Shown here: piece by piece, positions 54,934-64,000 of the stretch | How the letters are laid out: each line of letters opens with the position of its first letter | How positions within the stretch are numbered: the first letter of the stretch is position 1 | Source: Dehalogenimonas sp. W | GTDB lineage: Bacteria; Chloroflexota; Dehalococcoidia; Dehalococcoidales; Dehalococcoidaceae | Direction: 5' to 3' | DNA length: 64,000 nucleotides | NCBI RefSeq assembly: GCF_037094495.1 | Contig: NZ_CP146612.1 | Location: 1,426,001-1,490,000 of the forward strand | The notes under the pieces: model-generated | What the model was told of the DNA's origin: nothing | The model's database searches: none | Seen by the model: only the letters and a program-made list of their open reading frames with translations | Translations under genes and position numbers: made by a program

Positions 54934-57057
54934 TTGGAAGTTCAACATCTTAAATCAAAGTTGCCTGTTAGAATTAATCAATTGGCTGATTTATCAGCCA
55001 ATTTGTGGTGGAGCTGGCATCGTGACGCAAGGGATATGTTTAATAAAATTGACCGGCGGTTGTGGCAGGTAACGGGTCATAATCCAGTAAAAATGCTGTA
55101 TGATATAAATCCGGGACGGCTGGAAATTTTGGCCACAGATCCTGAGTTTTTAGAAATTTACGATGACGTAATTGCATCATTCGGGGCTGAAATCAGCGGC
55201 AGCGATGCCTGGTTAGCCCGGGAAGCCAAAACATCATTGAGCAGGCCGGTGGCCTATTTTTCCATGGAGTTCGCAGTTCATAACTCTTTGCCGATCTACG
55301 CCGGAGGGTTGGGCGTTCTGGCGGGGGACACCTGCAAAGAAGCTTCAGATCTGGGAATCCCCTTTGTCGGAGTGGGATTCATGTATCCCGAAGGCTATTT
55401 TCATCAACGTATCAGTGAAGACGGGTGGCAGACCGAAGATTATCTTTTGCTTGATTTTGAACGTGCCCCAATCAGCCGTGTTTGTACGGCGGACGGCCAG
55501 CGTTTATTGTTGAATCTTTCGGTCGGCGATAGGCAGGTTTATGTGGCTGCCTGGCAGGTACTGGCGGGCAGCAGTAAGCTTTATCTTCTGGATACCAATG
55601 TGCCGGAAAATGATTTGGAGGACCGGGGACTTTCAGCCCGGCTTTACAGCCCGGGTAAAGAGATGCGCTTGCAGCAGGAATATCTGTTGGGTTTCGGCGG
55701 TGTCATGCTGTTGCGGGCATTGGGGATTGAACCTGCTGTATGGCACTGTAACGAAGGCCATACAGCCTTTTTACTGATTGCGCGGTTGAAAGAATATATG
55801 ACAGCGGGGCACTCCAGGATTGAAGCCGAAGAGTTGGTGCGGCGGTGCTCGGTGTTTACGACTCATACGCCTGTTCCTGCCGGGCATGATGTTTTTGAAC
55901 TTGGCTTGATTGATCGCTACTTCTCATGGTTGTGGAATAAACTCGGAATAACCCGCGAAGAATTAATATCATTGGGACAGGTTCCCGGCGGACAGGATTT
56001 CAACATGACTGTGCTGGGATTAAAATTGGCAGCCAGCGCGAATGGTGTCAGTCAGGTTCACGGCGAAGTCAGCCGAAACATGTGGCGAAGCCTGTATCCG
56101 GGTCGGACCGCAGCTGAAGTACCAATCAGGCATATTACCAATGGGGTGCATATCCCCACCTGGGTGGCACCTGAGATCGCCCGTCTATATGAGGAATATG
56201 TTGATAAGGAATGGTATCGGCGACAGGATGACGCAGGGTTATGGGAGTCGCGGGTTCCGTTGATACCTGATGAAGAATTGTGGCATACGCATCAAGGGCG
56301 TAAACAAAGATTACTGCATTATATCCGGGAAAGGGTGCGTCGCGATTGGAAGGCCGGTGTTGATTCCGCCCCCAGACTGGCAGCCATGGGGGCTATGCTG
56401 GATCCGGAGGTACTTACGGTTGGTTTCGTCAGGCGTTTCGTTGAATATAAGCGACCGACCTTGTTGTTTCGTGATCTTGAACAGCTCAAGGAGTTGATTC
56501 GTGATTCCCAGCGCCCGGTCCAATTTATTTTTGCCGGCAAATCTCATCCAGCGGACTCCATGGCCAAGGAATTGATACATCGGGTTTATACTCAAGCCAA
56601 AGAGAATGATTTTGAAGGACGCCTCTGTTTCGTTGAAGATTATGATCTTCACCTGGCCCATTATCTGGTTCAGGGCGTAGATGTCTGGTTAAATAGCCCC
56701 CGGCGCTGGTTGGAAGCTTCCGGTACCTCGGGGATGAAAGCTGCGGTCAACGGGGTGCCGAATTTATCAGTCCGGGATGGCTGGTGGCACGAAGGATTCA
56801 ATGGGAAAAACGGCTGGGCGATAGGAGATATCTCCAAGCCCGAAAGCGTTGATGAAGAAGACGCACTGGATGCCGGTGCTCTTTTGTATGTCCTTAAAGA
56901 ACTTGTGGTACCGAAGTATTATGACCGAAATTTGGAGGATATTCCGTTAAAGTGGATGGCGGTTGTGAAGGAATCCGTCAGTACCGTACTGCCGCATTTT
57001 GCAGCCGCCAGAATGATGAAGGAATACACTCGTGAAATGTATCTGCCGCTAATTTAG
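54934..57057 (+). CDS. glgP: Alpha-glucan phosphorylase (GT35)
   Basis: PLP-dependent phosphorolysis of alpha-1,4-glucan to glucose-1-phosphate. The 707 residues belong to the short alpha-glucan phosphorylase type (N-terminal LADLSANLWWSWHRDARDMF region). The PLP lysine lies in EASGTSGMKAAVNGVPNLS, and YAGGLGVLAGD and HCNEGHTAFL are also typical. I prefer TTG 54934, nine bases after GGGGAGG (54918-54924); an in-frame TTG at 54913 precedes that site. It converges on the GT2 gene with a four-base overlap. Confidence 0.93.
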   Translation: MEVQHLKSKLPVRINQLADLSANLWWSWHRDARDMFNKIDRRLWQVTGHNPVKMLYDINPGRLEILATDPEFLEIYDDVIASFGAEISGSDAWLAREAKTSLSRPVAYFSMEFAVHNSLPIYAGGLGVLAGDTCKEASDLGIPFVGVGFMYPEGYFHQRISEDGWQTEDYLLLDFERAPISRVCTADGQRLLLNLSVGDRQVYVAAWQVLAGSSKLYLLDTNVPENDLEDRGLSARLYSPGKEMRLQQEYLLGFGGVMLLRALGIEPAVWHCNEGHTAFLLIARLKEYMTAGHSRIEAEELVRRCSVFTTHTPVPAGHDVFELGLIDRYFSWLWNKLGITREELISLGQVPGGQDFNMTVLGLKLAASANGVSQVHGEVSRNMWRSLYPGRTAAEVPIRHITNGVHIPTWVAPEIARLYEEYVDKEWYRRQDDAGLWESRVPLIPDEELWHTHQGRKQRLLHYIRERVRRDWKAGVDSAPRLAAMGAMLDPEVLTVGFVRRFVEYKRPTLLFRDLEQLKELIRDSQRPVQFIFAGKSHPADSMAKELIHRVYTQAKENDFEGRLCFVEDYDLHLAHYLVQGVDVWLNSPRRWLEASGTSGMKAAVNGVPNLSVRDGWWHEGFNGKNGWAIGDISKPESVDEEDALDAGALLYVLKELVVPKYYDRNLEDIPLKWMAVVKESVSTVLPHFAAARMMKEYTREMYLPLI

Positions 57058-58136
57058 CGCCAGGTCCACCAGCTGTTAGACAGAAAGTTCCAGCCAAAGG
57101 CAGCAATGATACCGATTGCCGCCGAAATAATATAGTGAAATCCGGTAGTTTCGGTCAGTAATCCCAGTATCCCCAGGTAGATAACCAACCCGCCCAGACT
57201 GACCAGGTTGAAACGTGCCAGGCGTCCGATATAATTTGAGCCAGTTGTGACGCGGCCTTTGAAGGTGAATCGGTCATTCAGTATAAAATTCCAGATAACC
57301 GCAGTTTCAAAGGCGACCGCACCCGAGGCCAGATAGGGTAATAGTCCGTTTTCAGTCAGTAGAGCGAGGATGGACAAATTGACAATTGAGCCGCTGGCGC
57401 CGACCGCAATAAATATAATAATCCGCTTATGTTCCCCCGAACGGCGCATCAGGCTGAACAGGTGGCGAAGATAGTCACCCTGGGTCAGTAATGAGAGTTT
57501 GGTCTGACCGGCACGCCGGTTCTCAAAACGGTATGGCACTTCCTTGATTTGTTGGGTATTGGACAGACACAGTATCTCCAGTAGGATCTTATAACCTACT
57601 GGACTAAGACTGGTACCTTGGAGTATTTCCCGGCGGAACAGAAAGCAACCGCTCATGGGGTCCTTGACGGAGCGGGTCTGCGGCAACAACAAATGCGCCA
57701 ACCAGCCGGCTCCGGAGGAAATGAAACGTCGAAACGCCGACCAGTTACCGACACTGCCGCCCGGAATATATCGGCTTGCGATAGTCAGGTCTGCCCCATT
57801 TTGGCAGGCAGTTAGCAAATCAGCCATGACTTCCGGCGGGTGCTGCAGGTCGGCGTCCATAACCGCCAGCAGTTGACCCTGGGCTAGCGAAAAACCATCA
57901 ACCACGGCGGAAGCCAATCCTCTTTTGTCGGTTCGGACCACGACAGTTACCGGGAAATCGGCGGCAAGTCGGCCGACTTCAGCCGCGGTGCCGTCAGGAC
58001 TATTGTCGTCAACGATCAAAACATCGTAAGGGTAGCTTTTCAAGGCGATATGAATGCGTTCCAAAAGGGGGTGGATGTTAGCCACTTCATTGTATGTCGG
58101 GATAATAATGCTGAGATGTAGTTTGGAGTTCTTCAT
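57054..58136 (-). CDS. Polyprenol-phosphate glycosyltransferase fused to GtrA-like membrane domain
   Basis: A 360-residue fusion. Residues 1-225 are a GT2 (DPM1-like) domain (IIIPTYNEVANI, VDDNSPDGTA, MDADLQHPPEV, SRYIPGG) that loads a sugar on polyprenyl phosphate; 235-360 is a four-helix GtrA domain (LILT-type WNFILNDRFTFKGR and a C-terminal NFLSNSWWTWR), which helps to move or present the lipid-linked sugar. TTGACG-17-TAGCAT (58174-58146, minus) ends nine bases before the ATG, so the mRNA may be almost leaderless. Confidence 0.92.
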   Translation of the reverse strand: MKNSKLHLSIIIPTYNEVANIHPLLERIHIALKSYPYDVLIVDDNSPDGTAAEVGRLAADFPVTVVVRTDKRGLASAVVDGFSLAQGQLLAVMDADLQHPPEVMADLLTACQNGADLTIASRYIPGGSVGNWSAFRRFISSGAGWLAHLLLPQTRSVKDPMSGCFLFRREILQGTSLSPVGYKILLEILCLSNTQQIKEVPYRFENRRAGQTKLSLLTQGDYLRHLFSLMRRSGEHKRIIIFIAVGASGSIVNLSILALLTENGLLPYLASGAVAFETAVIWNFILNDRFTFKGRVTTGSNYIGRLARFNLVSLGGLVIYLGILGLLTETTGFHYIISAAIGIIAAFGWNFLSNSWWTWR

Positions 58137-61299: not shown

Positions 61300-61527
61300 T
61301 TATTCGGCTTCTGAGAGCCGTGATTCCAGGTTGTTCTTGGCGATAGCCGCCCCCTCTTTAACCCGGTCTGCGAATTCATCAGCCCGGTCACCGAATTCAA
61401 CTGCTTTATCTCGTAAGATAGCCCGGGTTTCGTCGCCCGGGTGAGGAGCGTAAAGCAATCCGATACCAATGCCGATGGCGGTGCCCAAAATCAACCCTAA
61501 TGCGAAGTTGCCGGAATCGTTGCTCAT
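61300..61527 (-). CDS. YtxH-domain protein
   Basis: A 75-residue protein with one N-terminal helix (LGLILGTAIGIGIGLLYAPHPGDETR, the YtxH signature) and a charged helical C-terminus (AVEFGDRADEFADRVKEGAA). General stress-associated in other bacteria. GGAG precedes its ATG; the gene follows the DUF948-like gene after three bases. Confidence 0.9.
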   Translation of the reverse strand: MSNDSGNFALGLILGTAIGIGIGLLYAPHPGDETRAILRDKAVEFGDRADEFADRVKEGAAIAKNNLESRLSEAE

Positions 61528-61530
61528 AAT

Positions 61531-61815
61531 CTATTTTCTCCTTCTGAAAAAACTATCAAATCCAGTTTTGAGACCCTGAAACAAGGCGGCGATTTCAATT
61601 ATTGGTCTGACCAGCTCCCTGGTGGCGTATTGGGTAAACCCTTCAATAGCGCCTGAGGTGTTCTCAAGGGATTTTAAGATGTTTTGCGAACGGTCATAAA
61701 TCCGGTTGGTTTTTTTATAAATAGAAATCACCAACAATAAGACAACAAAGCTGATTAAGATAATGAGGACTCCGGCGATAATGATAACCAGATCCCGATA
61801 CCATTCAATGCCCAT
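61531..61815 (-). CDS. DUF948-like small membrane protein
   Basis: A 94-residue protein with one N-terminal membrane helix (about 9-32) and a helical tail, resembling DUF948 proteins that accompany YtxH in other genomes. It begins at ATG 61815 after GGAGG. First gene of a two-gene stress/envelope unit. Functional assignment beyond the family resemblance is not possible. Confidence 0.65.
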   Translation of the reverse strand: MGIEWYRDLVIIIAGVLIILISFVVLLLVISIYKKTNRIYDRSQNILKSLENTSGAIEGFTQYATRELVRPIIEIAALFQGLKTGFDSFFRRRK

Positions 61816-61920: not shown

Positions 61921-62511
61921 TCAAACCAGAAAGACCTGCCGCAGCACTGCTAACAACCAGTTGATAAAAAATGACAGCAAATGAAAAAGCCATCGTGTTG
62001 CCAGAGCAGCTAAAATGCCGATGCCGGCGCCACTGATAATATCCAGAGGGTAATACATCCCGGCATATATTCTGGCGAATGAATGTACTCCTGCGATCAG
62101 GAAAAAGAAATTTCCTGCTTTGCGGTTTCCTAACCAGACCGCAGCAGCAACAGCGAACAGAATAGCCGCTGAATTAGCCGGAAAAGAAGAGTCAGTCGGT
62201 TGATACAGCAACACGTTTATCGGCAGCTCGTCAAAAGGGCGGGGCCGGAAGATAACCAGATTTAGTAAACTGACCAGTCCGGTCCCGATACCCAGTGCAG
62301 CCATGGCTTGAAGAGTCAGTTTCTGGTTGGTCAGACGTTGCCGTGGCTCAGAAGCGGACAACCAAAGAAAAACCAATCCCAAGTTGGTGCTGATCAACAG
62401 AAAATAATCATTAGCCAATCCCTTAAACAATTCGTCCAAAATTCGGATATATCCGACCAGGGAATTGATGGCCTGTACCACCGCCTGGTCAAAATGAATC
62501 AGGTTCTCCAA
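61921..62511 (-). CDS. PAP2-fold membrane protein lacking both catalytic histidines
   Basis: A 196-residue protein with five to six helices and the outline of the PAP2 (BcrC-like) lipid phosphatase fold: FRPRPF (Arg89, Arg91) for motif 1, DSSFPANSAA (107-115) for motif 2 and FARIYAGMYYPLDIISG for motif 3. In active enzymes motif 2 ends in His (FPSDH/PSGH) and motif 3 has HYPxD; here these are Ser114 and Tyr153. It may be catalytically dead or have another chemistry. It starts at TTG 62511, overlapping the upstream gene by 13 bases, with AGGA seven bases before. Confidence 0.78.
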   Translation of the reverse strand: MENLIHFDQAVVQAINSLVGYIRILDELFKGLANDYFLLISTNLGLVFLWLSASEPRQRLTNQKLTLQAMAALGIGTGLVSLLNLVIFRPRPFDELPINVLLYQPTDSSFPANSAAILFAVAAAVWLGNRKAGNFFFLIAGVHSFARIYAGMYYPLDIISGAGIGILAALATRWLFHLLSFFINWLLAVLRQVFLV

Positions 62512-62888
62512 TATCGTATCCTGATCGCCTGGAAGAAGGTCATCTGCTTTAGGGATTCAATCCCGTTGACTATGGTGCCAACCGGGGGAGTGAACTTAGG
62601 GTGATTCACCAGGGACGACATGATAAATGTAAATGACCCGGCTGACAAAACAGCCAGACTGAATAGTCCGGCCTGTTGGGCGCCTTCAATAATTCCGGTC
62701 GGATTCCGGGCATTCCAGGTAAAAAACAGCACTGCCGGTATTACCAGAGCAACGATGGAGGTGATGCTATTGAACAGCCGATTTTGACTGAATAGCAAGC
62801 CGAGAAGACCACTTCTGATGGCGGCCAGTTGAATAACCGCAACTGTGGCGATAAGACTGGACAGAAAGTATTCAACAGAGAGGGTCAT
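62499..62888 (-). CDS. Four-helix membrane protein of unknown function
   Basis: A 129-residue protein starting at ATG 62888 (GAGG six bases upstream) with about four hydrophobic segments (about 5-27, 40-60, 75-95 and 100-120 weakly). I recognise no family. A much longer reading frame extends upstream to 63218, but its extra part is low-information and runs through the HNH-like gene in another frame. The gene lies between the HNH-like and PAP2-like genes with overlap to the latter, so the three form one unit. Confidence 0.65.
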   Translation of the reverse strand: MTLSVEYFLSSLIATVAVIQLAAIRSGLLGLLFSQNRLFNSITSIVALVIPAVLFFTWNARNPTGIIEGAQQAGLFSLAVLSAGSFTFIMSSLVNHPKFTPPVGTIVNGIESLKQMTFFQAIRIRYWRT

Positions 62889-62931
62889 AAAGTGCCTCGC
62901 GCGTGAATTGGAATAAAAGTTGAAAGGGGTA

Positions 62932-63159
62932 TCACCCGGAGTTGTTGCAAAACCAGCAGATAACTTCGCAATCATCAACGCTCTTGGTGAATTTACCGCT
63001 CTTGCTGGCCGCGACCCAGCCACCGGGCCCACTTTCAGCCCGCCGTTCCCAGACCAGCGGACGATTACAGCGTCCGAAGTGCTGGTGGGTGCCCCGAGCG
63101 CACTCACATCTACCCGAAGACCTGATCCATGCCTGTTGAATAATGCCGGTGGAAAACAT
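62932..63159 (-). CDS. Degenerate HNH-like zinc protein
   Basis: A 75-residue protein whose outline is that of small HNH nucleases: AWIRSSGRCEC (Cys18, Cys20), HxHFGRCNRPLVWERR (Cys31), a GWVAAS stretch where active members have WEAHH, and DDCEVICWFCNNS (Cys64, Cys68, Cys71) where they have CxxCH. So the zinc cysteines are kept while the catalytic histidines are lost. I prefer ATG 63159, about 20 bases after the predicted transcription start; an in-frame TTG at 63186 is an alternative. It has its own strong promoter and begins the operon with the membrane and PAP2-like genes. The family assignment rests on pattern by eye. Confidence 0.65.
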   Translation of the reverse strand: MFSTGIIQQAWIRSSGRCECARGTHQHFGRCNRPLVWERRAESGPGGWVAASKSGKFTKSVDDCEVICWFCNNSG

Positions 63160-63186
63160 TGGCCGCCAATTCCCCAGTTTTGGCAA

Positions 63187-63214
63187 ATTATAACACCTGA
63201 GCCGGATTTTGCAA
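63187..63214 (-). promoter_or_regulatory. Promoter of the HNH-like operon
   Basis: Minus strand TTGCAA (63214-63209), 16-base spacer, perfect TATAAT (63192-63187). Confidence 0.72.
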
Positions 63215-63256
63215 TCACCCGGATTATTCAGCTTGTGATGAGTCTCACCGAAGCAG

Positions 63257-63286
63257 TTTCCACTGCTCCGCAGTTTGTGTTAAAAT
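63257..63286 (+). promoter_or_regulatory. Possible promoter of the tubulin/FtsZ-like gene
   Basis: TTTCCA (63257-63262), 18-base spacer, TAAAAT (63281-63286), 46 bases before the ATG and divergent from the HNH-like promoter. Confidence 0.45.
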
Positions 63287-63332
63287 CGCGTCAATACACG
63301 AATAAAAAGCTTCAATAAGGCGAGGGAATAAT

Positions 63333-64000
63333 ATGAAATTAATGGTTGTGGGCTGCGGGCAGTGCGGCGGTCGTATTGCCGACCAGTTTTCTAAATTAAA
63401 CCGGGTTGCCCATGTGCGTCGGGGTGTGGATATCGCCACCAATGTGGTCGCAGTAAATTCGGACGTGGCCGATCTTTCCGGGTTGGAGCATATCCGGGCT
63501 GATTACCAGCACCGGATTCTCATCGGTTCTCAAAAGACGTCCGGTCACGGTGTTGGTAAGATCAACGAGATGGGAGCTGAAATTGCTCGTGACGACGGCG
63601 ATAAACTGATTGAGGCAATCAAAAACACCCCTAATTTTGGGGAAACCGACGCCTTTCTGCTGATCGCCGGCGCCGCCGGTGGTACCGGTTCCGGTTCCAT
63701 TTCGGTGCTGTCTCAGCAGATTAAGGAAAGATTTCCGGAAAAGCCGGTATATAACATGCTGGTTTTGCCCTTCGCCTACGAAGAGGCGACTGAGGAACGC
63801 TCGGTTTTCAATGTCGGTATCTGCCTGAAATCCTGCTATCTGGTGGCCGACGCGATATTCCTGGTGGACAACCAGCGGTTTATTAAAGCCAGCCACTCAC
63901 TAAGAGCGAATCTGGATAAGATTAACTATCACATGGTCAAACCGTTTTATAATTTATTATGTGCCGGAGAAGAAAAGAATTCCAAGTATATCGGTTCTAA
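63333..64000 (+). CDS. Second tubulin/FtsZ-superfamily GTPase (3' truncated by window edge)
   Basis: The frame opens at ATG 63333 (GAGGGA upstream) and is still open at base 64000, giving 222 residues. It has the glycine-rich VVGCGQCGGRIADQF start of tubulin/FtsZ proteins, a SQKTSGHGVGKINEMG insert and the GTP-binding tubulin signature as GAAGGTGSGS (113-122), closer to the tubulin form than to the GGGTGTGS of the ftsZ at 26.8 kb. It is therefore a divergent paralogue (CetZ- or FtsZL-like), not the division FtsZ. The C-terminal half with the T7 loop lies outside the window. Role unknown; shape or compartment organisation is possible. Confidence 0.85.
   Translation, partial: MKLMVVGCGQCGGRIADQFSKLNRVAHVRRGVDIATNVVAVNSDVADLSGLEHIRADYQHRILIGSQKTSGHGVGKINEMGAEIARDDGDKLIEAIKNTPNFGETDAFLLIAGAAGGTGSGSISVLSQQIKERFPEKPVYNMLVLPFAYEEATEERSVFNVGICLKSCYLVADAIFLVDNQRFIKASHSLRANLDKINYHMVKPFYNLLCAGEEKNSKYIGS

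Follow-up and report, generated by a model that had tools for sequence, protein, structure and literature searches.

What becomes of a membrane phosphatase that has lost its catalytic histidines, and why would a bacterium keep it? The question is raised by one end of the 64,000-base stretch of the Dehalogenimonas sp. W genome analysed here (the window; positions 1426001-1490000 of a genome of one contig, 1,772,240 bases), where three small genes lie next to a divergent tubulin-like GTPase gene (Table 1). An earlier note on this DNA had read the outer two of the three, HNH-like and PAP2, as having lost their catalytic histidines in parallel, and had proposed their repurposing as binding or sensing parts of a membrane system. 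We suggest a different emphasis. The functional unit consists of only the last two genes. MID, the middle membrane gene, is the obligate partner of PAP2, a role missed in that reading, and what the sequences describe is a phylum-wide clade of putative PAP2 pseudo-enzymes with an obligate partner of an unclassified family.

Table 1. Features of the locus, in window coordinates.
Feature	Position	Strand	Description
Pseudo-PAP2, BcrC-like	61921..62511	minus	196 aa, TTG start; PF01569
PAP2 motif 3	62041..62073	minus	Residues 147-157, RIYAGMYYPLD (canonical SR-x5-H-x3-D); Arg147 and Asp157 kept, nucleophile His to Tyr153
PAP2 motif 2	62170..62181	minus	Residues 111-114, PANS (canonical PS[GD]H)
MID	62499..62888	minus	129 aa with three TM helices predicted; belongs to no classified family; upstream partner of pseudo-PAP2
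HNH-like small cysteine-rich protein	62932..63159	minus	75 aa; retains the Cys/His pattern but not the HNH catalytic His residues
Promoter	63187..63214	minus	-35 TTGCAA, 16-base spacer, extended -10 TGTTATAAT
Tubulin/FtsZ-family GTPase	63333..64000, continues beyond window end	plus	389 aa

The three-gene unit and its neighbours

All three reading frames are open, and the three minus-strand genes and the promoter match the description in the earlier note, the promoter with the additional TG of an extended -10. This TGnTATAAT element is invariant in 8/8 genomes, and the -35 hexamer varies. The ATG of the HNH-like gene is consistent with the start region of every congener; the stop of this gene lies 43 bases from the MID start, and the MID and PAP2 frames overlap by 13 bases. 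The order HNH-MID-PAP2, which the note had asked to be sought in related genomes, is identical in all eight congeneric (Dehalogenimonas-like) genomes, and because order and substitutions recur in all eight, the pattern is not a matter of chance. Downstream of PAP2, at 61300-61815, lie two small genes (one YtxH-like, the other encoding a 94-aa single-TM protein) that are syntenic in 7/8 congener loci, own included. The same holds for a gene about 4 kb from the unit (57054-58136), whose product is a polyprenyl-phosphate mannose synthase-like GT2 with a C-terminal GtrA-like membrane part.

The GTPase gene starts at 63333 and the HNH-like gene with the ATG at 63159, a distance of 173 bases, in line with the gap of about 170 bases described before. 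Such closeness could mean that the HNH-like, MID and PAP2 proteins and the GTPase make up one membrane system, and the adjacency recurs in three congeners, so that in 4/8 genomes (G000, which is this one, G001, G005 and G006) the GTPase gene and an alanine-rich coiled-coil gene beyond it lie between the unit and rlmN. In G002, G003, G004 and G007, however, rlmN sits directly beside the intact unit and the GTPase is missing from the locus. The sole counterpart in G002, G003 and G007 is a 42-44% paralogue at another place, and nothing in G004 matches the GTPase protein. Nor was the adjacency seen at the MID-PAP2 loci examined outside the genus, and elsewhere in the phylum MID-PAP2 occurs with neither the GTPase nor the HNH-like gene. 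Since the unit persists in half of the congeners with no GTPase at the locus, we regard the GTPase as a neighbour and not a component: the link is not borne out, and a single system of all four proteins, largely refuted by synteny, is extremely improbable. Just past the window end, a gene for a 757-aa alanine-rich coiled-coil protein (L014:10570-12843) converges on the GTPase gene, and the two are jointly present or jointly absent at the locus in the eight congeners.

Only in this genus (8/8) does the HNH-like gene accompany MID-PAP2; degenerate homologues occur in the Dehalococcoides-like genomes G008-G010 and in G011, G042 and G191, none of them seen beside MID. Conserved in the family are the C-x-C, H-x-H, C and C-x3-C-x2-C positions; the catalytic HH and CH histidines are lost in 8/8 congeners, with AS and CN at these positions in the window protein; HH and CH are retained only in two small distant relatives (L075 and L076). 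The loss of catalytic residues that had been claimed stands, but the HNH label itself is weaker. None of the eight members matches the HNH endonuclease profile PF01844, even at E up to 5, and the AlphaFold model (8-row alignment; pLDDT 42) is too low in confidence to use. The family has no profile match of its own, and the label rests on alignment with L075 and L076, which touch PF01844 below its cut-off; the Cys/His pattern is kept. Descent from the HNH family is likely, and a cautious reading of the sequence is that of a small zinc-binding protein, perhaps regulatory.

MID and its linkage to PAP2

MID has no relative in Pfam, NCBIfam or PDB sequences. Its AlphaFold model, three long helices at pLDDT 92, gave no significant Foldseek match against the PDB and viral sets. 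MID lies beside PAP2 in 30/30 loci of the class Dehalococcoidia, and among Chloroflexota records found by sequence it is upstream and on the same strand in all 41 separate MID/PAP2 pairs, with carriers that include SAR202, Lucifugimonas, Ardenticatenaceae and Anaerolineales. Most pairs overlap, although the overlap lengths are approximate, the PAP2 start having been taken as the codon nearest the MID stop. On the chromosome of an uncultured Dehalococcoidia bacterium (L200), MID (residues 8-139) and PAP2 (195-389) are in one frame, joined by an extra hydrophobic segment. Adjacency, overlap and this one fusion suggest that the two proteins may form a complex. Two other candidates for fusion, G492 and G551, were rejected when their N-terminal half proved not to be MID by profile. 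At L153 and L154, two genomes carry PAP2 proteins of the same clade lacking the motif-2 His, in a frame extended at the N terminus by about 150 residues that the profile does not identify as MID. In at least 12 of 25 class loci examined (L120, L121, L124-L131, L133 and L134), a gene for a branched-chain aminotransferase (IlvE) precedes MID immediately or nearly so; a functional link was set aside and the arrangement taken as inherited gene order.

MID was found in 81/294 genomes of the class, with the same count from a narrow or a broad profile, so low profile sensitivity was rejected as the cause of its absence from genomes with MurG. No MID match was obtained in 13 sampled genomes from the same family or order, among them Dehalococcoides-like ones, and the pair is therefore dispensable in some relatives.

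Residue losses in PAP2 and their history

That the window protein is a PAP2 homologue is certain from its profile match (PF01569, E 6.3e-12, 45.8 bits against a gathering cut-off of 27.2). It scores 50.8 bits with NF008813, undecaprenyl-diphosphatase BcrC/YbjG, below the curated equivalog cut-off of 229. With the BcrC/YbjG type it shares this profile, its length, an R-P-R-P-F motif 1, the positions of motifs 2 and 3, Arg147 and Asp157, and the sister clade of the MID-linked proteins keeps PSDH. Unlike BcrC/YbjG, the whole MID-linked clade lacks the motif-2 His and has Asn in place of the Asp or Gly before it; the window protein in addition lacks the nucleophilic His, has an obligate partner and falls far below the NCBIfam cut-offs. 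The earlier note was right that Ser114 and Tyr153 occupy, by alignment, the motif-2 and motif-3 histidine positions. It did not list two further changes, motif-1 Lys to Asn84 and motif-2 Ser to Ala112, and the protein thus combines Asn84, Ala112, Asn113, Ser114 and Tyr153. It fails the canonical motif 1 (K-x6-RP) but keeps Arg91; Asn stands at the Lys position in 68/73 of the clade, and this change is weak evidence because most intact relatives compared also lack the Lys.

In an alignment and tree of 119 PAP2 proteins (trait columns were kept in the alignment, a minor bias), the motif-2 His is present in 0/73 proteins with MID against 41/43 without. The two exceptions among the latter, G492 and G551, fall inside the same clade, and the residue was lost once on the tree (support 100/99, every bootstrap tree). 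The motif-3 nucleophile has a different history: it is present in 50/73 of the MID-linked clade and underwent at least seven changes, to Tyr, Phe, Gln or Ser, with the gene retained. Asp157 is kept in 73/73, Arg147 and the motif-1 Arg each in 70/73, and 38/73 retain Ser, nucleophile His, both Arg and Asp. Within the genus, G002 and G007 keep His153, so nucleophile loss is not fixed there; Tyr153 is a late step, not common to these two of the eight congeners or to most of the phylum.

Values of dN/dS (Nei-Gojobori, close pairs only, larger distances being saturated and left out) were 0.11-0.16 for PAP2, 0.08-0.16 for MID and 0.03-0.09 for the HNH-like gene, and 0.11 for PAP2 in the pair G003/G004, where the nucleophile is already lost. 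These are not the values of decaying genes. Taken with the absence of the motif-2 His from every MID-linked protein and of the HNH-like residues from every congener, they show degeneration that is conserved and not local decay. The parallel losses first noticed in the two neighbours are thus real, but they are separate events of very different age.

A PAP2 fold kept with no catalytic residues may have a precedent in the vertebrate PLPPR/LPPR proteins, which are described as lacking such residues; these are eukaryotic and lack a MID partner. The literature searched yielded no description of a bacterial PAP2 that lacks activity and has a partner protein.

Possible function of the pair

Peptidoglycan is reportedly missing from Dehalogenimonas and its relatives, which nevertheless keep a cis-prenyltransferase; in this genome UppS is present and neither BacA nor MurG has a match. 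A single loss of peptidoglycan genes has been placed before Dehalococcoidales and the marine radiation (PMC10284905). One could then suppose that wall loss relaxed selection on a BcrC enzyme and that the pair is decaying. Inside Dehalococcoidia, MurG is indeed missing in 80/81 MID carriers against 84/213 other genomes (Fisher p 3e-24, a value that ignores shared ancestry). However, MurG is present in 15/16 tested genomes that carry the PAP2 clade outside the class or among unclassed Chloroflexota records, and because these carriers have MurG, wall loss did not create the module. The motif-2 loss is, moreover, one ancient event, and purifying selection on MID and PAP2 contradicts decay, which we consider very improbable. 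The module marks wall-less lineages within Dehalococcoidia but is not tied to wall loss.

What the remaining site might do can be gauged against PgpB of E. coli, our mechanistic yardstick, which has the same three motifs and at whose K97, S161, G162, H163 and H207 equivalents the window protein is naturally changed. With H163A (motif 2), PgpB retains 27% of its hydrolysis of C55-PP but 0.09% of that of PGP; with H207A (motif 3), activity is undetectable and phosphate makes the protein much more stable; S161A lowers activity to 0.14%, and K97A is tolerated (PMC7413402). Since H163A still hydrolyses C55-PP, the ancient motif-2 loss fits a specialisation for pyrophosphates; by the H207A result, later motif-3 losses, as here, fit a protein that has given up hydrolysis but retains much of its phosphate site. 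Our preferred reading, to which we give about an even chance, is that a BcrC-like undecaprenyl-diphosphatase was turned, together with an obligate partner, into a non-hydrolytic polyprenyl-(di)phosphate-binding module. An ancestral Chloroflexota BcrC-like PAP2 would have gained the three-TM protein MID and lost its motif-2 His once, leaving at most a C55-PP-selective pyrophosphatase. Several lineages, this genus included, would later have lost the nucleophile (and here also the motif-2 Ser), with Arg91, Arg147 and Asp157 remaining as phosphate contacts. Here the pair would have lost the ability to hydrolyse lipid phosphates; at the outer leaflet it could instead bind polyprenyl (di)phosphate and act as a store, gate, sensor or regulator when the lipid carrier is recycled for glycosylation of the envelope. 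The chemistry would be done elsewhere, by a canonical PAP2 with K-x6-RP, SGH and SR..H (L111:1722-2354, on G000:C1 near 986000), which may be the working C55-PP phosphatase because BacA was found in none of 31 genomes of the order.

Several points count against a binding module. The 38 proteins with a largely complete site may still hydrolyse C55-PP, and we therefore argue for a non-hydrolytic module only in lineages like this one; even here, Tyr could in principle take over as nucleophile, one phosphate contact is gone with Ala112, and the 13 sampled relatives lacking MID do without the pair. A less probable alternative is that the two proteins still act as an enzyme, namely a C55-PP pyrophosphatase that depends on MID and has no need of the motif-2 His, and that the Tyr and Phe lineages reflect changed chemistry or minor losses. 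The residual activity of PgpB H163A would allow this (PMC7413402), and the lack of BacA in the order makes PAP2 proteins the likely source of C55-P. An enzyme is harder to reconcile with repeated loss of the nucleophile while the gene was not lost, with Ala at the Ser161 equivalent of the window protein, and with a canonical PAP2 in the same genome. Alternatively, since both proteins are membrane proteins and a phosphate site once faced the extracytoplasmic side, the pair might be a polyprenyl-phosphate translocase or scramblase, functionally equivalent to DedA or DUF368 proteins; the lipid carrier has to return to the inner leaflet (PMC12826051), but we judge this unlikely. A bolder version of the binding-module reading, for which we see a modest chance at best, is that MID and PAP2 make up a two-protein system not described before, a carrier, gate or translocase of polyprenyl (di)phosphate that arose from a phosphatase through the single ancient His loss and is used across Chloroflexota, peptidoglycan-less lineages included.

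Binding or sensing in a membrane system, as first proposed, was a reasonable inference for PAP2, but the HNH-like gene, confined as an attachment to this genus, is no core part of it. Genome surveys have counted bcrC as widespread in Dehalococcoidia (PMC10284905). The presence of a bcrC gene cannot be equated with the presence of the enzyme when one large Chloroflexota clade lacks the motif-2 His and often the nucleophile, and bcrC calls in Dehalococcoidia need rechecking. The natural steps by which an enzyme may have become a binder can be followed in this clade, which also has a strict partner gene and one fusion, and the idea is testable with a few purified proteins. Our results suggest that a lipid-carrier recycling enzyme became a binding or regulatory device across Chloroflexota, including bacteria that have no wall.
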